Positions 6,824 to 16,256 of a DNA stretch of 64,000 bases are shown here, in pieces; positions within the stretch are counted from its first letter, which is position 1, and the number at the start of each line of letters is the position of its first letter. The stretch comes from Alteromonas australica (GTDB taxonomy: Bacteria; Pseudomonadota; Gammaproteobacteria; Enterobacterales; Alteromonadaceae). Location: assembly GCF_000730385.1 (NCBI RefSeq), contig NZ_CP008849.1:2356001-2420000 (forward strand), written 5' to 3'. Below the pieces are notes generated by a model, which ran no database searches, had not been told where the DNA came from, and saw nothing but the letters and a program-made list of their open reading frames with translations. Made by a program: the position numbers and the translations under genes.

Positions 6824-7459
6824 TTAGCTTAACTGAAGTTTATCCATAAGCAGTACCGCTTGAGTACGCGTATTAATTTCTAGCTTACGCAAAATTGCAC
6901 TGATGTGTGCTTTAATCGTTGCTTCAGTCACGTTCATTTCGTGGGCAATTTGTTTATTCATAAGGCCGTCACGAAGATAAGAAAGTACCTGAATTTGCTT
7001 AGGCGTAAGTTCTCTGAATCGTTGTAATAGTAATTTCAACTCATCATCCACTTTCTCAAGCTCGTCTTCCATACCTTCAGGAAGCCACTTTTTGCCACCA
7101 ATGATATCGATAATCGCTTGTGCAATTTCTCGGGTTGGCGACACTTTCGGAATAAAACCTTGTGCGCCTAAGCTCATTACTTGAGCGACGACTTCAACAG
7201 TATCGCTACCAGACACTACACCAATTGGAATATTTGGAAATTGTTCACGCAAGGTAATGATGCCGTTGAAGTACTCTCCACCGGGCATGTTGAGGTCGAG
7301 AAGAACTAACTCAACACCGTCATATTCATTTAACTTAGCGACAGCATCGTCTAGGCTGCCTGCTTCAAGAATTTGGGCGTTTTCAAAATAGGGTTCCAAC
7401 GCGCCGCTTAACGCTTCGCGAAATAATGGATGGTCATCTGCTACAAGTATTCTTGTCAT
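6824..7459 (-). CDS. Response regulator, NarL/FixJ family
   Basis: A 211-residue two-component regulator. Residues 1-120 are a receiver domain with the acidic pair D8-D9, phospho-acceptor D55 (in LLDLNMP), the conserved Ser83 and Lys105, so phosphorylation residues are intact. Residues about 145-205 are a LuxR-type helix-turn-helix (LTPKQIQVLSYLRDGLMNKQIA, EATIKAHISAILRKL). No histidine kinase is adjacent, so its partner lies elsewhere. It is convergent with fadE and diverges from cmoA. Position near fadE hints at a metabolic role but proves nothing. Confidence 0.85.
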   Translation of the reverse strand: MTRILVADDHPLFREALSGALEPYFENAQILEAGSLDDAVAKLNEYDGVELVLLDLNMPGGEYFNGIITLREQFPNIPIGVVSGSDTVEVVAQVMSLGAQGFIPKVSPTREIAQAIIDIIGGKKWLPEGMEDELEKVDDELKLLLQRFRELTPKQIQVLSYLRDGLMNKQIAHEMNVTEATIKAHISAILRKLEINTRTQAVLLMDKLQLS

Positions 7460-7632
7460 TAGCGTTACTACTTCCTTATTATCTTTACAACCTAGGTTAA
7501 TACGTTAACTAGAATTCGGAAAGCCCTATATCGGAAAAAATAGCATATTTTAGCGAAATTTCTTCTTTTTCAGCGGCAATTTAGTTGTTGAGGGGTTGGT
7601 GATAAAGGTAAAATCGCCCGCAAGTTTTAGCA

Positions 7633-8376
7633 ATGAGTAAAAAATACGTGCAAAAACACGATAACCTGTTTGCCAACCCTTTGAACAAGGTTGCTGATTT
7701 TAAGTTTGATGAATCGGTTGTAGACGTATTCCCAGACATGATTCAACGATCGGTTCCTGGTTATGAATCCATTATTCATACTATTGGGGAATTAGCCAAG
7801 TCCGTGGTAACAGAAGACTCCAATGTTTACGACCTAGGTTGTTCACTGGGTGCCGCCAGTTTATCCGTTGCACGGGCTACCGAATCTAAACGCTGCAATA
7901 TTATTGGTGTAGACAGTTCGCAGGCAATGGTTGAACGCTGCAAGCGCATGGTTCAAGCATTTAATTTGCCCAACCCCATCGATATTATTCAACAAAATGC
8001 GCAAGACACCACCATTGTTAACGGGTCTATGGTTATCATGAACTTTACCCTACAGTTCATTCCCCCCTCTGATCGCGCTGCCTTGTTGGCTAAAATTTAT
8101 GAAGGCCTCAACCCTGGCGGGGTGTTGGTGCTGTCTGAGAAAATCAAACACCCCACTGTGGCGGGCAATGAATTGCTAATCGACCTTCATCACCAATTTA
8201 AACGCAATAATGGTTACAGTGAGTTGGAAGTGAGTCAAAAACGTGCATCGCTGGAAAAAGTGATGTTGACTGACACATTCGCCGAACACGAAAAGCGCCT
8301 ATTAGAAGCTGGGTTTAGCGATGTTGTCATGTGGTTTAAATGCTACAATTTCACCTCTCTTGTTGCCATCAAGTAA
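7633..8376 (+). CDS. cmoA: Carboxy-S-adenosyl-L-methionine synthase
   Basis: CmoA converts SAM and prephenate to carboxy-SAM, the donor used by CmoB to make cmo5U at position 34 of tRNA. The 247 residues match the family. The SAM-fold motif YDLGCSLGAAS sits at residues 66-76, and the N-terminal block ADFKFDESVVDVFPDMIQRSVPGY segment is characteristic. It is 24 bases upstream of cmoB on the same strand, the standard pair. No strong Shine-Dalgarno sequence precedes the ATG. Confidence 0.96.
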   Translation: MSKKYVQKHDNLFANPLNKVADFKFDESVVDVFPDMIQRSVPGYESIIHTIGELAKSVVTEDSNVYDLGCSLGAASLSVARATESKRCNIIGVDSSQAMVERCKRMVQAFNLPNPIDIIQQNAQDTTIVNGSMVIMNFTLQFIPPSDRAALLAKIYEGLNPGGVLVLSEKIKHPTVAGNELLIDLHHQFKRNNGYSELEVSQKRASLEKVMLTDTFAEHEKRLLEAGFSDVVMWFKCYNFTSLVAIK

Positions 8377-8400
8377 GCCAATACCTAACGGAAGGACTAA

Positions 8401-9384
8401 ATGAGTAAGCCAGAAGCGCAGTGGTTTAACGACTGTTATAAATCTCTTTTCGATACCCCTTTAAGCCATTGGCTTCAAACGTTGCCAGCTCAATTAGATC
8501 ACTGGCAACGCAACAGTAAACATGGTGAGTTTGATAAGTGGTGTCGCTTACTTGCCAAGTTACCCTCAACCACCCCTTCTAATATTGAGTTAGATGAGAA
8601 AGTAGCGGTAGGCTCCCTTGCCGATGTAGATGTCTACACGCAAAAGAAAATTAGCGGGTTATTACAGCAGTTTATGCCTTGGCGTAAGGGCCCCTTTTAT
8701 GTGCATGATATTCATGTCGATACAGAGTGGCGTTCAGATTGGAAATGGGATCGGGTATACCCACACATTACGCCACTAAAAAATCGTACGGTTCTCGATG
8801 TGGGCTGTGGAAGTGGCTACCATATGTGGAGAATGCTCGGGCAAGGCGCATCTCGGGTTATCGGTATAGACCCTACCCAACTCTTCTTTATTCAATTTCA
8901 AGCAATTAAGCACTTTATTCCGCGAGATGACATTCACTTCCTGCCTTTGGGAATTGAAGAAATGCAGCCGTTGAACGCCTTTGATACGGTGTTTTCTATG
9001 GGGGTGCTTTACCACAGAAAAGACCCTATTCAATTTCTTAACCAGCTTAAACTCCAGCTTCGCAAGGGCGGTGAGTTGGTGCTTGAGACCCTCGTGGTAG
9101 ATGGTGATGAGCAAACCGTGCTGATGGCCGGCGAGCGATATGCACAAATGCGTAATGTATGGTTTTTGCCTAGCACAAAAGCGTTAGCAGTGTGGCTAGA
9201 AAGGGTGGGATTCGAAAATATTCGTGTGGTAGATGTGAATCACACGACCCTCGATGAACAACGCTCTACACCGTGGATGGATAGCCAGTCACTGAAAGAT
9301 TTTCTCGATCCTGAAGATATTACGCGCACTATTGAAGGATACCCTGCACCACAAAGGGCTGTTTTAATTGCCAATCGTAAATAA
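8401..9384 (+). CDS. cmoB: tRNA U34 carboxymethyltransferase
   Basis: CmoB transfers the carboxymethyl group from carboxy-SAM to 5-hydroxyuridine-34 of tRNA, widening wobble decoding. It is 327 residues, as in relatives. The Rossmann methyltransferase motif VLDVGCGSGYHMWRM begins at residue 131, and the aromatic-rich segment DTEWRSDWKWDRVYPHI just before it is typical of CmoB. A GGAAGGA ribosome binding site lies ahead of the ATG. It follows cmoA in an operon, and transcription may read through into the glycerate-kinase gene because no terminator is visible after it. Confidence 0.96.
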   Translation: MSKPEAQWFNDCYKSLFDTPLSHWLQTLPAQLDHWQRNSKHGEFDKWCRLLAKLPSTTPSNIELDEKVAVGSLADVDVYTQKKISGLLQQFMPWRKGPFYVHDIHVDTEWRSDWKWDRVYPHITPLKNRTVLDVGCGSGYHMWRMLGQGASRVIGIDPTQLFFIQFQAIKHFIPRDDIHFLPLGIEEMQPLNAFDTVFSMGVLYHRKDPIQFLNQLKLQLRKGGELVLETLVVDGDEQTVLMAGERYAQMRNVWFLPSTKALAVWLERVGFENIRVVDVNHTTLDEQRSTPWMDSQSLKDFLDPEDITRTIEGYPAPQRAVLIANRK

Positions 9385-9428
9385 AAGGGGCAACCGCTGC
9401 CTTTACGTGATATTGGCATAAATGTTGA

Positions 9429-9474
9429 TACCTCAATCTTTAGTGAATGTGCTAAATCCGCTTTGATTGAGGTA
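9429..9474 (+). promoter_or_regulatory. Inverted repeat that would mask the ribosome binding site of the glycerate kinase gene
   Basis: TACCTCAATC (9429-9438) and GATTGAGGTA (9465-9474) are exact 10-base complements with a 26-base AT-rich loop. The right arm contains the AGGT that serves as ribosome binding site, six bases before the ATG at 9480. In an mRNA this hairpin would hide the start site. There is no T run, so it is not a normal terminator. It could instead be a DNA operator, though the 26-base gap is wide for that. Confidence 0.55.
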
Positions 9475-9479
9475 GTAAC

Positions 9480-10337
9480 ATGGATATTAAAGGGTTTTTA
9501 AAGACACAACGATTGCCCCTCGCCTACGCGGACACTGCACAAAAATGGTTCATACCTTTATGTGAGCGTCTACTAGAGCACCAAAAAGGTGCAAAGAAAA
9601 CATTTATCGTGGGAATTAACGGTAGTCAAGGGTCTGGAAAATCTACACTGACGGCGTTTATTGCCGCCTATCTGGAGAGTGTGCATAACAAAAACGTGGT
9701 CGCTCTCTCTATTGACGATTTCTATTTCGACAAAGCGCATCGTGGTGAGCTGTCTTCACACGTTCATCCGTTATTAGCCACGCGCGGCGTGCCCGGAACA
9801 CACGATATTTCACTTGCTCTTGATACCATTAATGCGTTGCAATCAGCACAATCGGTGGCAGTCCCGCGTTTCAATAAAGCCACTGATAATCCATTCCCAA
9901 CCGCGCAATGGCCGTTAGTTGATGGCCCCGCCGACGTGGTTATCTTGGAAGGATGGTGTGTGGGAATTAAACCTCAAATTCCTTCACAGTTAAATGCGCC
10001 TGTAAATTCTCTAGAAGAAACTGAGGATCCGCTTGGTATATGGCGCAACTTCGTTAATACTGAACTGGCGAGCACCTATCAAACATTGTTTTCTCTCATT
10101 GATTATCAAGTGATGTTAAAAGCCCCTTCTTTCGATTGCGTGTTTAACTGGCGATTAGAACAAGAAGATAAGCTTCGCGCCGCCACCGAAGGCGAGTCGA
10201 CCGGTATCATGAGTGAGAGTGAAATAGCGCGCTTTATACAGCATTATCAACGTTTGACTGAACATGCGTTAGAGACATTGCCTGACTCTTGCGATACCGT
10301 GTTTACGTTAGATGAAAACAGAGCCATAACATCATAG
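9480..10337 (+). CDS. D-glycerate 3-kinase-like P-loop kinase
   Basis: A 285-residue P-loop kinase of the glycerate kinase (GLYK) type that would phosphorylate D-glycerate to 3-phosphoglycerate. The Walker A motif GINGSQGSGKST lies at residues 45-56, followed by LSIDDFYF (Walker B-like), the P-R-F-N-K-A block near 153 and VILEGWCVG. This is the order seen in plant GLYK and its bacterial relatives. It opens an operon with a phosphatase, a GT81 synthase and a GH13_18 phosphorylase. That fits recycling glycerate released by the phosphorylase into the acceptor for the synthase. Uridine kinase-like P-loop proteins are the main alternative, but context favours glycerate. Confidence 0.8.
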   Translation: MDIKGFLKTQRLPLAYADTAQKWFIPLCERLLEHQKGAKKTFIVGINGSQGSGKSTLTAFIAAYLESVHNKNVVALSIDDFYFDKAHRGELSSHVHPLLATRGVPGTHDISLALDTINALQSAQSVAVPRFNKATDNPFPTAQWPLVDGPADVVILEGWCVGIKPQIPSQLNAPVNSLEETEDPLGIWRNFVNTELASTYQTLFSLIDYQVMLKAPSFDCVFNWRLEQEDKLRAATEGESTGIMSESEIARFIQHYQRLTEHALETLPDSCDTVFTLDENRAITS

Positions 10338-10348
10338 GAAGTTTGTTA

Positions 10349-11158
10349 ATGACAAAAACGCTTGTTTTCACCGATATGGATGGCACTTTATTAGACCATC
10401 ATACTTATTCATTTGACGCGGCGAAGCCCGCGCTAAACGCGCTAGACGAAAAACACATACCCGTTATTCCCACAACCAGTAAAACGTTTGCTGAGTTACA
10501 ACCGCTAAGAAAATCTATCGGCCTCGACGGTCCATTTATTATTGAAAATGGGGCAGCGGTTTTCATACCACATGGCTTTTTTAAGCAAAAACCCACTGGC
10601 ACTGTATGGGTAGATGGGTATTGGTGTAAGTCTTTTATTTCGAATCAGAAATACTGGATTAAGCTTATCGATAAAATTAACGCAGATTTTGCGGGTGAAT
10701 TTAAACAGTTTTCTAAAATGTCGGTTCAAGACATTCAAGACGCCACGGGGTTAGATGAAGCCTCAGCGAAACTTGCGGCTAAGCGACAATTTGGTGAACC
10801 CGTTCTGTGGACGGGTTCCGAAGAAAGAAAACTCGCCTTTATTGAGGCTATCAAGGAAAGGGGGGCATACCCGCTTGAAGGTGGGCGTTTTGTCCACGTT
10901 TCAGGTAACTGCGATAAGGGTCAAGCCCTAAAGTGGCTTGCTCAAGAATTTCAAAAACAACACAACTGCAAGGTTCGCACACTGGCACTTGGCGATGGAA
11001 AAAATGATATTGCCATGCTTGAAGCTGCGCATGTTGCTATACGAATCATTTCACCGGTAAACCCTCCGCCAAACGTAAAAAAAGAAGAGGTTTATACCAG
11101 CACCCTACCCGGCCCTGAAGGCTGGAACGAAATGCTTACTCAATTGCTTTCCCTATGA
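10349..11158 (+). CDS. Mannosyl/glucosyl-3-phosphoglycerate phosphatase (HAD-IIB)
   Basis: A 269-residue HAD hydrolase of the MPGP/YedP type. The catalytic motif VFTDMDGTLLDH holds D9 and D11; IPTTSKT is motif II; and the C-terminal LALGDGKNDIAMLE is motif IV with the metal-binding acidic residues. It would remove phosphate from glucosyl- (or mannosyl-) 3-phosphoglycerate to give the free glycosylglycerate osmolyte. I chose ATG 10349, because AGGAAG lies at a good distance; a TTG two codons earlier is possible. It sits between the kinase and the GT81 synthase. Confidence 0.85.
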   Translation: MTKTLVFTDMDGTLLDHHTYSFDAAKPALNALDEKHIPVIPTTSKTFAELQPLRKSIGLDGPFIIENGAAVFIPHGFFKQKPTGTVWVDGYWCKSFISNQKYWIKLIDKINADFAGEFKQFSKMSVQDIQDATGLDEASAKLAAKRQFGEPVLWTGSEERKLAFIEAIKERGAYPLEGGRFVHVSGNCDKGQALKWLAQEFQKQHNCKVRTLALGDGKNDIAMLEAAHVAIRIISPVNPPPNVKKEEVYTSTLPGPEGWNEMLTQLLSL

Positions 11159-11170
11159 TCAGGAGGACAC

Positions 11171-12397
11171 ATGGCTGATTTTTATCAAAATGGTGTGGTT
11201 ACAACGTTACATAATTTATCTCGTCGACCTACAGAGGAACTAGAAGCCGAGTTACTCCGTTTTTCTCAGAAAAGACCCATGGCGCTTATTCTGCCCTCAC
11301 TTTTTTCTGAGTTAGAAGGAGAAGCTTTACCTCATATTGTGGAAGAACTGACCCAAGTGCCCTACTTATCTGAAATTGTAATAGGCCTTGATAGAGCAAC
11401 CCAAGATCAATACAAACATGCCTTATCGTTTTTCGACAAGCTTCCCCAACACCACAGAGTACTGTGGAATGACGGACCACGCTTAAAAGCCATTGACGAA
11501 GAATTGCAAGCGCAAGGCCTAGCACCAAAAGAATTGGGTAAAGGGCGCAACGTATGGTACTGCATGGGGTACGTTCTCGCCTCTAATCGCGCTGAATCGG
11601 TTGCCTTGCATGATTGCGACATCGTGACGTACAACAAAGATCTACTGGCTAAGTTAATATACCCCGTCGCCAACCCAACCTTTAACTACGAGTTCTGTAA
11701 AGGGTATTATGCCCGTGTAGCAAATGGAAAAATTAACGGTCGTGTTTCTCGTTTGTTAGTTACACCGCTACTTCGCGCCCTTAAACGCATCATGGGCGAT
11801 AACGAATATTTAGAGTTCATGGATAGTTTCAGGTATCCACTGGCGGGCGAGTTCTCCTTCCGTCGAGATGTACTAAATGATATCCGCATTCCCAGCGACT
11901 GGGGCCTAGAAATTGGTGTTCTTTCTGAGATGCACAGAAACTATTCACACAATCGTTTATGCCAAGCAGATATTTGCGATATTTACGATCATAAACATCA
12001 AGATTTGTCGCTGAACAATGACCAAGGCGGCCTATCAAAGATGTCTATCGACATTACCAAAGCGATTTTCAGAAAGTTAGCAACCCAAGGCTACACTTTC
12101 AGTAATGAAATGTTTCGCTCGATTAAAGCAACCTACTTTAGAATTGCATTAGATTTCATCGAAACCTATCACAACGATGCCGTGATGAATGGTCTTACGT
12201 TAGATATACACAGCGAAGAAAAAGCGGTAGAAATGTTTGCAAGTAACATTATGAAAGCTGGCGAGAACTTTTTAGCCAACCCAATGGAAACGCCGTTTAT
12301 TCCAAGTTGGAACCGAGTAACCAGTGCTGTACCCGACATTTTAGAGCGTTTATTAGAAGCCGTAGAAGCCGACACCGCAGAATTTATGGAAAAGTAA
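11171..12397 (+). CDS. gpgS: Glucosyl-3-phosphoglycerate synthase, GT81 family
   Basis: A 408-residue retaining glycosyltransferase that would join glucose from an NDP-glucose donor to 3-phosphoglycerate. The metal-binding D-x-D is DCD at 148-150 within ALHDCDIVTY. Later blocks YPLAGEFSFRRDV, IPSDWGLEIGVLSEM and DICDIYDHKHQDLS are typical of GpgS and the related mannosyl synthase, and the last supplies the metal-binding His region. It is somewhat longer than mycobacterial GpgS (about 320 residues). AGGAGG lies just ahead of the ATG. The next gene follows after three bases, indicating tight coupling. Confidence 0.87.
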   Translation: MADFYQNGVVTTLHNLSRRPTEELEAELLRFSQKRPMALILPSLFSELEGEALPHIVEELTQVPYLSEIVIGLDRATQDQYKHALSFFDKLPQHHRVLWNDGPRLKAIDEELQAQGLAPKELGKGRNVWYCMGYVLASNRAESVALHDCDIVTYNKDLLAKLIYPVANPTFNYEFCKGYYARVANGKINGRVSRLLVTPLLRALKRIMGDNEYLEFMDSFRYPLAGEFSFRRDVLNDIRIPSDWGLEIGVLSEMHRNYSHNRLCQADICDIYDHKHQDLSLNNDQGGLSKMSIDITKAIFRKLATQGYTFSNEMFRSIKATYFRIALDFIETYHNDAVMNGLTLDIHSEEKAVEMFASNIMKAGENFLANPMETPFIPSWNRVTSAVPDILERLLEAVEADTAEFMEK

Positions 12398-12400
12398 ACT

Positions 12401-14155
12401 ATGACTTGGAATATCCTCCATGACAAAGTAAAGCACCACTTGGAATTCATCTATGCTGATGTGGATTTACCGTTAACCATAGACCAGTTAGCAGTATCTT
12501 TGATGAAAACCATAGGAATTGATGATGAGGTGGATATCGCTCAACCTCAGTCCCATTACAATTATTGGGACGAGGACGACATCATCATGATTACTTATGG
12601 TGATAGCGTGATTGATGGTGACGAGCGACCGCTTGTCACCTTAAACCGCTTTTTGCACCGCTACTGCAAAAACACGGTCAATAATGTTCATATTCTTCCT
12701 TTTTTCCCTTATAGCTCTGATGATGGCTTTTCCGTCATCGATTACTCTAGTGTCAATGAGTCGTTAGGTACATGGGAAGATATTGAAGCCATAGCAAAAG
12801 ACTATGGTCTAATGACGGATTTGGTGATTAATCATTGCTCTGCCCGTAGCGCCTGGTTTGACAACTTCGTCAAAGGTGAAGGCACAGGTTCAGATTTTTT
12901 CTTTACCGCCGACCCTGCCGATGACCTATCTATGGTGACACGGCCACGTGTTTCACCGTTATTGCGTGAAACCGAAACGGCCAAGGGTACTAAACACGTG
13001 TGGTGTACCTTTAGCCACGATCAGGTAGATTTTGATTTTAGAAATCCAAACGTCTTATTGGCCTTTGTCGATATCATTCGCCTGTACATCGATAAAGGCG
13101 CGAAACTGTTCAGGTTAGATGCGGTGGCGTTTCTTTGGAAAATTGTGGGCACAAATTGTATTAACTTGCCGCAGACACATGAAGTTATTCGCTTATTACG
13201 TACCCTCATTGAGCATGTAGACCCGTCAATTATTATCATTACCGAAACGAACATCCCAAATAGAGAAAATCTCACCTATTTTGGCAACGCCAATGAAGCC
13301 CACGCTATCTACAATTTCTCGCTACCTCCCTTATTAGTAAACACCTTGGTTAGCGGTGATTGTAAGTACCTTAAAAGCTGGATGATGAGTATGCCACCGG
13401 CTCAAAATGGCACGGCATATTTTAACTTTATTGCCTCTCATGACGGCATTGGTCTTCGCCCTGCGGAAGGCTTGTTAAGTGACGAAGAAATATCTGAACT
13501 TGTGCATACTATGCAAAACTTCGGCGGTAAAATTTCATGGCGAGCGTCTGATCACGGCCAACAAAAGCCTTATGAAATTAATATTACCTTGTTTGACGCA
13601 CTACAAGGCACGATCAAAGGGCCCGATAGGTGGCAGATCGATCGCTTCATATGTGCCCATGCCATTATGTTAGGCATGGAAGGCATACCCGGTTTATACA
13701 TTCATAGCTTGTTAGGCACATCCAACGACTACGAAAAGGTAGCCAATACGGGGCAAAACCGCTCTATTAACCGCAGGCGCTGGGAGCTAACCGAATTAGA
13801 GGCACTGTTAGATTCGCCTTACTCTCAGCACCATAAAGTGCTAACTCGTCTATCGCAGCTTATTCGGGTAAGAAAAGCCCAACCAGCATTTCATCCTAAC
13901 GCCACCCAATTTACCTTGCAGTTGGGAAATCAGATATTTGGATATTGGCGACAAAGTCTCGATCGAAAACAGAGCGTTTTCTGTATCAGTAATATCAGTG
14001 ACGAAGAGCAATCTGTGCTTTTGTCTGACATTAACCTTATTGGTACAGATAACTGGATTGACTTAATTACACGTCAAGAAATTGCGTTATCAAGCAGCTT
14101 TTTACAAATGAAGCCGTATCAAACACTGTGGATCAGTAATCAAGATTTTGAATAA
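12401..14155 (+). CDS. ggaP: GH13_18 phosphorylase, probably glucosylglycerate phosphorylase
   Basis: A 584-residue GH13 enzyme of the sucrose-phosphorylase subfamily. The predicted catalytic residues are D240 (LFRLDAVAF), E282 (ITETNIPN) and D348 (ASHDGIG). True sucrose phosphorylases are near 500 residues, whereas glucosylglycerate phosphorylases such as E. coli YcjM are about 560. The acceptor loop here reads [13 protein letters not shown], unlike the sucrose enzyme. With GpgS, a phosphatase and glycerate kinase beside it, I infer that it splits glucosylglycerate with phosphate to glucose-1-phosphate and glycerate. The name on homology alone would be sucrose phosphorylase. Confidence 0.82.
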
Positions 14156-14852
14156 CATTGACGAAAGTACCTCGTTGCCGTCTGCACAAGACGGCGCGTT
14201 CATCTTTGATTTAGATGGCACCTTAGTAGACTCTGTTCCAGACATTACCCGCGCTATCAACCTCGCCTTAAAGGCACTTAAGCGTCCAACTTGTGAAGAG
14301 GGTGACGTTCGACATTGGATAGGAAATGGCGCGAAGGCGCTTGTGAGACGCGCCGTATCCTCTGGGTTTCGCCCTACCATTGACGTGCCACAGAGACTAT
14401 TGGAAGAGACCCATACCCAGTTTCTTAAATACTATAGCGACACACTGTGTGAAAGCTCTACCCTTTACCCTGGTGTAAAAGAAACCCTCGCCGAATTGAA
14501 ACGCATTGGCTACCCATTGGCTATTGCGACTAACAAGCCTGCGCGTTTTATCGCGCCAATATGTGAAACCTTAGAGATAAACACTTTTTTCAGTCTTTGC
14601 GTAGGGGGAGATTCATTACCCGAGAAAAAACCTTCACCCTTGCCTCTTGCGCATCTATGCCACCAGCTCAACAAACAGTCTCACCATTGCATCATGGTGG
14701 GCGATTCTAAAAATGACATTTTGGCTGCCAAAGCCGCGGGCATGCGAAGTGTTGGCCTTACCTATGGGTATAATTATGGCGAGTCAATAAGCCAATATCA
14801 CCCTGATTGGGTGTTTGACGATTTTAGCGAAATCACCTCCCTGTTACCTTAA
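14148..14852 (+). CDS. HAD phosphatase, phosphoglycolate phosphatase-like
   Basis: A 234-residue HAD hydrolase of the Gph/PGMB type: motif [13 protein letters not shown] (D21, D23), the helical cap domain (about residues 35-100), motif II IATNKPA, and [14 protein letters not shown] as motif III/IV. The start is a TTG that overlaps the end of the preceding gene by eight bases; no ATG is available before motif I, so translation by coupling is likely. In a genome a Gph relative usually clears 2-phosphoglycolate. Here, as last gene of the glucosylglycerate operon, it might instead act on glucosyl-3-phosphoglycerate or on a damaged by-product. Confidence 0.82.
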
Positions 14853-15014
14853 TCACGGTTGCGTTTGTTATCCTATTTACACTGCGTTGTTCCCAAGCAA
14901 ACATAGGCCGCAAATGGCCTACCCCGCTTTCTTAATTATCACACATTAATCTTTGGTATAACCGCAATTTTTCTGTAATATCCTGCTGTTCAAAATATTC
15001 GAGGAGTTATTAGG

Positions 15015-16256
15015 ATGTCAGCGAGTTGGCTTTCACTGGAGAGCGCATTAGACAAAGCGTTATCTGCCGCACACACAGTAACAGAATGTGAAACCGTATC
15101 GCTGTTTAGTGCTAATAACAGAATTGTGGCGACAGACATTGTTGCCACTCTAGATGTCCCGCCTTGGGATAACTCAGCCATGGATGGGTACGCAGTGAAT
15201 ACTGCCGGCCTGTCTACGTCATCCCCGCTAGAGGTTCAGGGTACTATTACCGCCGGCATGGCCGCTGATACCCCGTTATCAACTAATCGTGCTTTTAAAA
15301 TTATGACAGGGGCTCCCGTGCCACCTAACGCTGATGCGGTGGTGATGGTAGAGAATACGGAACAACGGGAAAATAAGGTCATCATCAAATCCTTGCCAAC
15401 GTCAGGTGAAAATATCCGTTTGAAAGCTAACGATATCTCAGCCGGCGAAGTACTTATCGCAAAAGGCACGCGATTAAATGCTGAACATTTAATGTTGTTA
15501 TCGTCTCAAGGGCTAGACAAAGTCTCAGTATATAGAAAGCTTAAAGTCGGCGTTGTGGCCACTGGCAGCGAATTAGCACAGCCAGGTGACAACCGAAGTT
15601 CAACGCAAATATTTGAATCTAACCGTGTTGGCGTTTGTGCAATTTTAGGCAATGAAAACCTGGATATCGTGGATTTTGGTATTGTTGAGGACGACAAAGA
15701 CAGCTTGCAGCAACTGTTTGAAAGTGCAATAGGCCAAGTGGATATTATGGTAAGCAGTGGCGGCGTTTCAGTGGGCGATGCCGACTACGTGAAAGAAATC
15801 ATCAATCGTCTAGGTGGCGTAGATTTCTGGAAAGTCGCCATTAAGCCAGGGAAGCCTTTCGCCCTAGGTTATTTACAACAAAGTGATGCGCAAAAAAATA
15901 GCCAACGTACCTTATTTTGTGGGTTACCCGGCAATCCCGTGTCTTCCTTTGTTACCGCAAAACTCCTTGTCGTACCGGTGATACGAAAAATGCAGGGACA
16001 AGTCAATGTGTCTGCACCGCTAACGATGAATGCAACATTAACTCACCCCATTAAGCGCCGTGCTAGGCGACGGGATTTTCAGCGCGCAACCATGCACAAA
16101 ATGGCCGATGGTGGCTACGAGGTAACGCCGTTTAAAACTCAGAGTTCCGGTGTCATGACCTCTATCACCTCAGCAAATTGCTTTATGATCCTTCATGAAG
16201 ACGTGAGTCAATTAGACGCTGGCGACACCGTACCTGTGATGCCATTTACACTGTAA
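15015..16256 (+). CDS. moeA: Molybdopterin molybdenumtransferase
   Basis: MoeA inserts molybdate into adenylated molybdopterin, the last common step of Mo-cofactor synthesis. The 413 residues match the family. Visible are PPWDNSAMDGYA near residue 50, IMTGAPVPPNADAVV, GVVATGSEL, VSSGGVSVGDADYVKE and LPGNPVSSFV, i.e. all four domains in order. AGGAG precedes the ATG. MogA/MoaB partners are not adjacent; a MocA-like transferase and a CoxDE-like pair lie 2-5 kb downstream on the other strand. Confidence 0.95.
   Translation: MSASWLSLESALDKALSAAHTVTECETVSLFSANNRIVATDIVATLDVPPWDNSAMDGYAVNTAGLSTSSPLEVQGTITAGMAADTPLSTNRAFKIMTGAPVPPNADAVVMVENTEQRENKVIIKSLPTSGENIRLKANDISAGEVLIAKGTRLNAEHLMLLSSQGLDKVSVYRKLKVGVVATGSELAQPGDNRSSTQIFESNRVGVCAILGNENLDIVDFGIVEDDKDSLQQLFESAIGQVDIMVSSGGVSVGDADYVKEIINRLGGVDFWKVAIKPGKPFALGYLQQSDAQKNSQRTLFCGLPGNPVSSFVTAKLLVVPVIRKMQGQVNVSAPLTMNATLTHPIKRRARRRDFQRATMHKMADGGYEVTPFKTQSSGVMTSITSANCFMILHEDVSQLDAGDTVPVMPFTL

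Follow-up and report, generated by a model that had tools for sequence, protein, structure and literature searches.

Which pathway do five closely spaced genes of Alteromonas australica serve, and what might set their expression? The window analysed here is a 64,000-nucleotide (nt) stretch, positions 2356001-2420000 of a 4.31 Mb genome contained in a single contig, and coordinates below are counted from its first base. A sequence-only reading had proposed that the five genes encode a cycle in which glucosylglycerate is made and broken down. Support for that assignment came from protein families, motifs and gene clustering, and we conclude that four of the genes, glyK, gpgP, gpgS and ggaP, very probably serve both to synthesize and to recycle 2-O-alpha-glucosylglycerate, a compatible solute, with substrates and flux taken from family knowledge. 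Upstream of glyK lies a leader with a conserved promoter-like element and a hairpin, whose predicted role is considerably less certain.

The gene layout

The open reading frames (ORFs) in question are as follows.

9480-10337, + strand: glyK, predicted class III (GLYK-type) D-glycerate 3-kinase, 285 aa
10343-11158, + strand: gpgP, predicted glucosyl(mannosyl)-3-phosphoglycerate phosphatase, HAD-IIB MPGP, 271 aa
11171-12397, + strand: gpgS, predicted GT81 glucosyl-3-phosphoglycerate synthase, 408 aa
12401-14155, + strand: ggaP, predicted GH13_18 glucosylglycerate phosphorylase, 584 aa
14148-14852, + strand: gph2, phosphoglycolate-phosphatase-type HAD protein, an accessory neighbour probably outside the system

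In agreement with the sequence-only reading, the ORF list places all five on one strand, at these coordinates, with intergenic gaps of 5, 12 and 3 nt followed by an 8-nt ggaP/gph2 overlap. The first gap becomes 11 nt if gpgP begins at an ATG 6 nt further in, and the overlap holds if gph2 uses a TTG start. The five ORFs sit between cmoA-cmoB (7633-9384; both named by NCBIfam matches) and a gene that, from its translation, we take to be moeA.

In the proposed cycle, GpgS would couple NDP-glucose to 3-phosphoglycerate and GpgP would remove the phosphate to give glucosylglycerate. GgaP would then use phosphate to split glucosylglycerate into glucose 1-phosphate and D-glycerate, which GlyK would convert to 3-phosphoglycerate, the acceptor for GpgS. 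The step that the sequence-only reading took from a single transcript to turnover control is an inference.

The gene set itself is already known. According to a 2020 review, genes for glucosylglycerate phosphorylase (GGaP) are often accompanied by genes for glycerate kinase, GpgS or GpgP, and the neighbourhoods it describes in Meiothermus silvanus, Spirochaeta thermophila and other organisms have the same partner genes and diagnostic residues as the window; the part of the review that covers these neighbourhoods mentions no leader or promoter, and it states that the metabolic function of GGaP in vivo is unconfirmed by experiment (PMC7178133). A 2024 review credits this gene neighbourhood with the discovery of the enzyme (PMC11009771). 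In the glucosylglycerate operon described for Prochlorococcus NATL2A, making and recycling genes stand together as in the window, and recycling is described as proceeding to glucose 1-phosphate and 3-phosphoglycerate; that operon adds a putative transporter gene, and none was seen in the window operon (PMC11631117).

Identity of the phosphorylase

Is GgaP a glucosylglycerate phosphorylase, or a sucrose phosphorylase as its family might suggest? The marks of GGaP given in the 2020 review are (T/S)ETN at strand 5 and a loop-A Glu replacing Gln, the corresponding sucrose phosphorylase motif being N(L/V)D(I/L/V)YQ (PMC7178133). GgaP carries TETN (E282) and PYE (E392), and its D240/E282/D348 triad aligns with that of Escherichia coli K-12 YcjM, a GGaP with the same motifs. 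We compared 41 rows, comprising 33 of GGaP type (GgaP and YcjM included), six of sucrose-phosphorylase type and two amylosucrase-like rows. TETN was present in 33/33, 0/6 and 0/2 of these, respectively. Loop A reads (P/A)YE in every GGaP-type row and YQ in all six sucrose-phosphorylase-type rows, which also carry EIH and NVDLYQ (6/6). The sucrose-type rows have H in the E282 column of the alignment, which we took for a local alignment shift, and in a PDB sequence search the Glu of TETN aligned with a Glu of 7qqj. GgaP is 42% identical over 531 columns to YcjM, whose RefSeq name is glucosylglycerate phosphorylase.

The genome holds a second GH13_18 gene (L034:5320-6801, - strand) with sucrose phosphorylase marks, which provides a natural specificity control. 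Its product has the sucrose phosphorylase loop-A motif, scores 881 bits against the solved sucrose phosphorylase 7znp and is 30% identical to GgaP.

It is very improbable that GgaP is instead a sucrose, sucrose 6-phosphate or glucosylglycerol phosphorylase placed here by chance. The subfamily is shared, and the best PDB sequence matches are sucrose and glucosylglycerol phosphorylases, with no glucosylglycerate phosphorylase named among the best 60 of 118. Against this, loop A of GgaP differs from NVDLYQ, GFDVHQ, KXXYYQ and VGAIYQ, TETN and PYE are those of YcjM, and a separate protein of the same genome bears the sucrose phosphorylase marks. We rejected a sucrose phosphorylase identity in particular on the missing loop-A motif, a score of 207 bits against TIGR03852 (cut-off 334), the presence of TETN and PYE, and the higher identity to YcjM than to the paralogue. 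The kinship with true sucrose phosphorylases that would count against the sequence-only reading thus did not appear in motifs or identities, and its view that the GH13_18 protein is something else is borne out by TETN, the loop-A Glu and the likeness to YcjM. The predicted activity of GgaP as a glucosylglycerate phosphorylase is well supported by sequence.

Because 16 of the 38 forks in the phosphorylase tree are open and the branches to sucrose phosphorylases and amylosucrases are very long, this assignment rests on motifs and identities and not on tree shape. Two tree rows (L148 and L149) are labelled as GGaP-only, yet their genomes hold GpgS elsewhere. The structure model of GgaP has a mean predicted local distance difference test score (pLDDT) of 81.7, with residues 105-114 and 284-298, beside the motif regions, below 50, and for that reason acceptor-site geometry was not read from it. 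Unlike the window, the annotated neighbourhood of E. coli ycjM (16 kb) contains an ABC transporter and other sugar genes, with no synthase or glycerate kinase.

Kinase, phosphatase and synthase

The Walker A motif of the glyK translation reads GINGSQGSGKST; it, the DxD of the synthase and the phosphorylase triad were all found where the sequence-only reading had seen them. The two best PDB matches to GlyK (phmmer) are D-glycerate 3-kinases, 7xpc (GLYK, E 4.4e-22) and 6ckg (E 1.2e-19); pantothenate and uridine kinases match at 5e-7 or weaker, and PF00485 scores only 30.2 bits. By kinship, GlyK is predicted to be a plant-type (GLYK) class III D-glycerate 3-kinase. Kinases of this class are described as yielding 3-phosphoglycerate, other classes of bacterial and animal glycerate kinases yielding 2-phosphoglycerate (PMC10970406); GlyK would therefore return glycerate directly to the acceptor of GpgS. 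GLYK kinship together with the class III product thus favours the earlier claim that the kinase closes the cycle at 3-phosphoglycerate. GlxK-type (PF02595) and MOFRL-type (PF05161) glycerate kinases were both absent from the genome, in a search that did not extend to further GLYK copies; among 24 same-genus genomes, 5 have a MOFRL-type enzyme.

GpgP scores above cut-off against NF001218 (413.6 bits, cut-off 362; HAD-IIB, MPGP-type) and TIGR01486 (223.4 bits, cut-off 164.75), and matches 1xvi at E 1.5e-32. The DxD motif of GpgS is DCD, within HDCD (D148-C-D150), and the protein matches the glucosyl-3-phosphoglycerate synthase model NF040724 over its full length (382.8 bits).

Could the product be mannosylglycerate, with a synthase that takes GDP-mannose and a phosphatase that acts on mannosyl-3-phosphoglycerate? 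The best phosphatase model is named mannosyl-3-phosphoglycerate phosphatase, and Rubrobacter MpgS is among the fold and profile matches of the synthase. We nonetheless regard this as improbable, since GpgS models and GpgS chains are the first matches of the synthase and the adjoining phosphorylase bears glucosylglycerate marks. Several observations do weigh against a firm assignment of GpgS: its score falls short of the NF040724 cut-off of 700, its structure model is poor (pLDDT 57.8), and GT81 also includes an MpgS, the Rubrobacter enzyme, that scores near GpgS in the weak structural comparison. The sequence match to mycobacterial GpgS is itself weak (E 6e-5). Foldseek with this low-confidence model gave 29 matches at E<=0.001, consisting of mycobacterial GpgS, Rubrobacter MpgS and two entries with no title beyond 'Mycobacterial Protein'.

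Conservation of the four-gene core

The order glyK-gpgP-gpgS-ggaP is contiguous in the window and in 23/23 other same-genus loci. Named related loci, the best 80 of 306 relatives, are mostly from Alteromonas, and others come from Salinimonas, Paraglaciecola, Glaciecola, Aliiglaciecola, Vibrio, Psychromonas and further genera; the core is together in 75 of these 80, some of whose contigs are common with the 23 same-genus loci. The clustering of the four genes is not due to chance. Across 247 genomes of the order, GpgS was found in 70 and a GGaP-type GH13 protein in 78; 67 have both, 3 have GpgS alone and 11 have GGaP alone. The eleven sampled genomes with a GGaP-type GH13_18 protein and no GpgS match are represented by L146, L147, L150, L151 and L276-L282. 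Four of these genomes have a protein that clusters with E. coli YcjM, and they may only consume glucosylglycerate.

Within the genus (L039-L061), identity to the window is highest for gpgS (87-97%) and lowest in the set for the kinase (52-67%). One same-family genome has gpgS in two overlapping pieces, one of them with a stop (G112:C1:1931551-1932767), from either a frameshift or a sequencing error.

In Pseudoalteromonas, the kinase and GpgP are fused as a protein of 580-581 aa in 6/6 records found, all on large plasmids, at the following positions.

L283:1764-3509, kinase-GpgP fusion
L284:766-2511, kinase-GpgP fusion
L285:779-2521, kinase-GpgP fusion
L286:779-2521, kinase-GpgP fusion
L287:779-2521, kinase-GpgP fusion
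L288:767-2509, kinase-GpgP fusion

This fusion links the breakdown arm to the synthesis arm. The fused protein is annotated only as a HAD-IIB family hydrolase, and the plasmid GpgS is labelled hypothetical protein or glycosyl transferase.

Status of the fifth gene

The sequence-only reading had included the second HAD phosphatase in the system, and this part of it did not hold up. Gph2 is of phosphoglycolate-phosphatase type (284 bits against NF009695, cut-off 225), and its gene adjoins ggaP in only 10 of 24 same-genus genomes, the window included. A homologue (E<=1e-30) occurs in 13 of the 24, in 3 of them a distant one elsewhere in the genome, and none was found in the remaining 11. In 20/20 other loci with gph2, some of them duplicates, a gap of 82-223 nt separates ggaP from the aligned gph2 start, and each such gap holds a hairpin with 8-13 base pairs, in most cases followed by a weak T tail, in a count made without a shuffle control. 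The patchy presence of gph2, together with this gap and its hairpin, therefore led us to leave the gene out of the system, short of proof. Gph2 is also the sole protein of the genome above the TIGR01449 phosphoglycolate phosphatase cut-off.

A conserved element upstream of glyK

What lies between cmoB and glyK? We identified three overlapping or adjacent features in the leader.

9413-9429, + strand: promoter-like element TTGGCATAAATGTTGAT, TGGCAY-N5-TTGW, with sigma-54 -24/-12 spacing and lacking the -12 C
9424-9438, + strand: hairpin 5' arm GTTGATACCTCAATC, in which 14/15 positions pair with 9465-9479
9465-9479, + strand: hairpin 3' arm GATTGAGGTAGTAAC, which includes the likely glyK Shine-Dalgarno sequence GAGGT (9469-9473) and ends at the ATG

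Of 99 distinct leaders, 90 have TGGCAY-N5-TTG in the 200 bp before glyK, compared with 1 of the 652 control regions, taken upstream of eleven other genes at the same loci; the single case is a ggaP, and the count on the opposite strand is 0. The base that follows TTG is A or T in 90/90, and the two bases after it, in 91 leaders, are TA (41), TT (20), AT (16) or AA (14). These counts are not independent events, because the sequences are related. Loci without a glyK match (n=21, not de-duplicated) include 8 in which the element, or a close variant of it, precedes gpgP.

The known promoters that the element most resembles in our comparison are those of glnA. Sigma-54-type glnA promoters of the same order share TGGCAY and the 5-nt spacing with the glyK element (consensus as given in PMC12316311): among glnA leaders from 27 genomes (L242-L268), TGGCAY-N5-NNGC was present in 26 and TTGW never. 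The 26 glnA boxes all read T-(C/A/G)-G-C at -12, compared with T-T-G-(A/T) at glyK. The glyK element therefore combines a sigma-54 -24 box and spacing with a different -12 box: TGGCAY lies at -24 at a fixed distance from TTG, as at sigma-54 promoters (90/99), and the GC of -13/-12 is missing. No sigma-70 -10 box was found as an alternative, since the anchored profile has no such column at a fixed distance from TTGGCA.

The glyK leader is the only zero-mismatch place for TTGGCAYANNTGTTGWW in the genome. Allowing up to one mismatch gave 5 sites, the leader included, and reversed-pattern controls gave 0 and 6; a wider regulon defined by the pattern was rejected. The one further site of the four that we inspected (L155) lies inside an opposite-strand ORF of 333 aa, with no osmolyte gene seen. 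YTGGCACGNNNNTTGCW had no exact match in the genome, and TTGGCAYNNNNNTTGCW had three.

A predicted hairpin over the ribosome-binding site

The predicted fold of the window leader has an energy of -22.5 kcal/mol (z -5.04, with 0/200 shuffles as good), and RNA without the 5' arm gives a z of 0.16. Among six other leaders folded, z was -5.54 (L041), -3.37 (L114), -2.53 (L057) and -1.22 (L055), and -0.88 in L058, which has no such hairpin. By inspection, no T run follows the hairpin, and an intrinsic terminator was rejected. A known Rfam element was likewise rejected: the one match at E<=1 within 7400-15100 was to mir-33, on the opposite strand (8466-8525), and its 20.8 bits fell below the gathering score of 50.

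For pairing tests we used leaders with an element-to-ATG distance of 63-67 and glyK identity of at least 53%, which gave 40 leaders and 33 distinct arm pairs. A subset of 16 pairs, biased because it had been picked for its pairing, was left out of account. Mean pairing was 11.58/15 over the 33 arm pairs, compared with 10.56 when 3' arms were shuffled among species (sd 0.19, maximum 11.24 in 5000 shuffles). The four innermost positions, which lie outside the element and the Shine-Dalgarno sequence, were paired at 2.61/4 versus 2.02 (sd 0.14; 0/5000). In MAFFT alignment A1 (22 sequences, with gaps in some 3' arms), pairing holds in 80.9% of cells versus 74.0 (sd 1.2; 0/500), and slid registers pair at 22-51%. 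Pairs changed on both sides were not raised (6 vs 5.5), although such cells were (25 vs 11.6). In the 20 leaders with at least 13 pairs, predicted openness of the Shine-Dalgarno sequence was 0.08 in the long RNA and 0.51 in RNA starting after the 5' arm; the corresponding values for the remaining 20 leaders were 0.36 and 0.54. The hairpin thus belongs to part of the genus.

How might the leader act?

The arrangement of element and hairpin points to a possible mechanism. If the element is a sigma-54-type promoter, transcription would begin at about 9440, two nucleotides beyond the 5' arm. The operon's own transcripts, lacking that arm, would keep an open ribosome-binding site, and RNA read through from cmoAB would fold the glyK site shut. 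That the leader sets expression in this manner, with transcription from the element beginning immediately 3' of the 5' arm, is a tentative proposal to which we give less than even odds; conservation and covariation define the element and the hairpin, and their action is inferred. More doubtful again is the fuller version, in which the hairpin, with an inner, atypical sigma-54-like promoter (TTGW at -12), would insulate the operon from cmoAB and tie glucosylglycerate to a nitrogen-type signal.

Several results count against this proposal. NNGC is present in 0 of 99 glyK leaders and 26 of 27 glnA leaders, and the consistent lack of C at -12 makes sigma-54 use at glyK doubtful. Upstream of gpgP, the element is missing from 13 of the 21 loci that lack a glyK match. 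Of the 40 fixed-spacing leaders, 20 form fewer than 13 of the 15 pairs, and in 7 of these the Shine-Dalgarno sequence is still predicted to be closed. The weak-hairpin leaders L050-L052 have a cmoB spacer of only 97-98 nt, and in L057, 12 pairs persist despite a spacer of 399 nt, so that the hairpin and a short cmoB spacer are not cleanly associated. Lastly, G-T cells outnumber A-C cells by 71 to 12, mostly where the element or the Shine-Dalgarno sequence fixes one side, and at free positions the ratio is 7 to 5. The wobble excess therefore cannot tell RNA from DNA, and we withdrew it as an argument for RNA.

The even balance at free positions, and the fact that the long inverted repeat spans the predicted start, would suit arms that act as a DNA operator or cruciform instead of an RNA structure. 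This is unlikely in our view: the arms vary in sequence yet keep pairing, unlike a fixed protein site, and the 3' arm covers the Shine-Dalgarno sequence and ends at the start codon.

A stronger contender, with a probability only somewhat below one half, is that the element is not a promoter but the site of an unknown DNA-binding regulator, the start lies upstream, and every transcript carries the hairpin as a translational switch. C is never present at -12, and a working RNA hairpin requires transcripts with both arms. On the other side, the element matches the same-order glnA promoters in its -24 box and spacing, and it is kept where the hairpin is absent. We consider a switch carried by every transcript no less likely than a promoter within the hairpin.

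A promoter inside a hairpin would have a precedent in phage T4, where a hairpin covers the ribosome-binding site of I-TevI, soc and e, as proposed here for glyK, and where transcripts from the I-TevI gene's own promoter lack sequence needed for the hairpin, in the account of these genes given in PMC2988022. The window differs in being a bacterial metabolic operon whose promoter and start are predicted only. Among the titles and abstracts listed in searches of open-licence papers we found no description of the leader or of the kinase-phosphatase fusion, which is weak evidence of absence.

Implications

Were the promoter-in-hairpin proposal true, the insulated leader would give bacteria an equivalent of the phage T4 design, along with a promoter variant common to several families of the order. 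Low-nitrogen conditions reportedly favour glucosylglycerate (PMC11009771), an effect that the sigma-54-type promoter, if real, could explain. The leader offers a concrete handle on the timing of operon expression. The possibility has been raised that Prochlorococcus obtains glucosylglycerate from Alteromonas (PMC11631117), and the complete make-and-break set in 24/24 same-genus genomes supplies a gene base for that idea.

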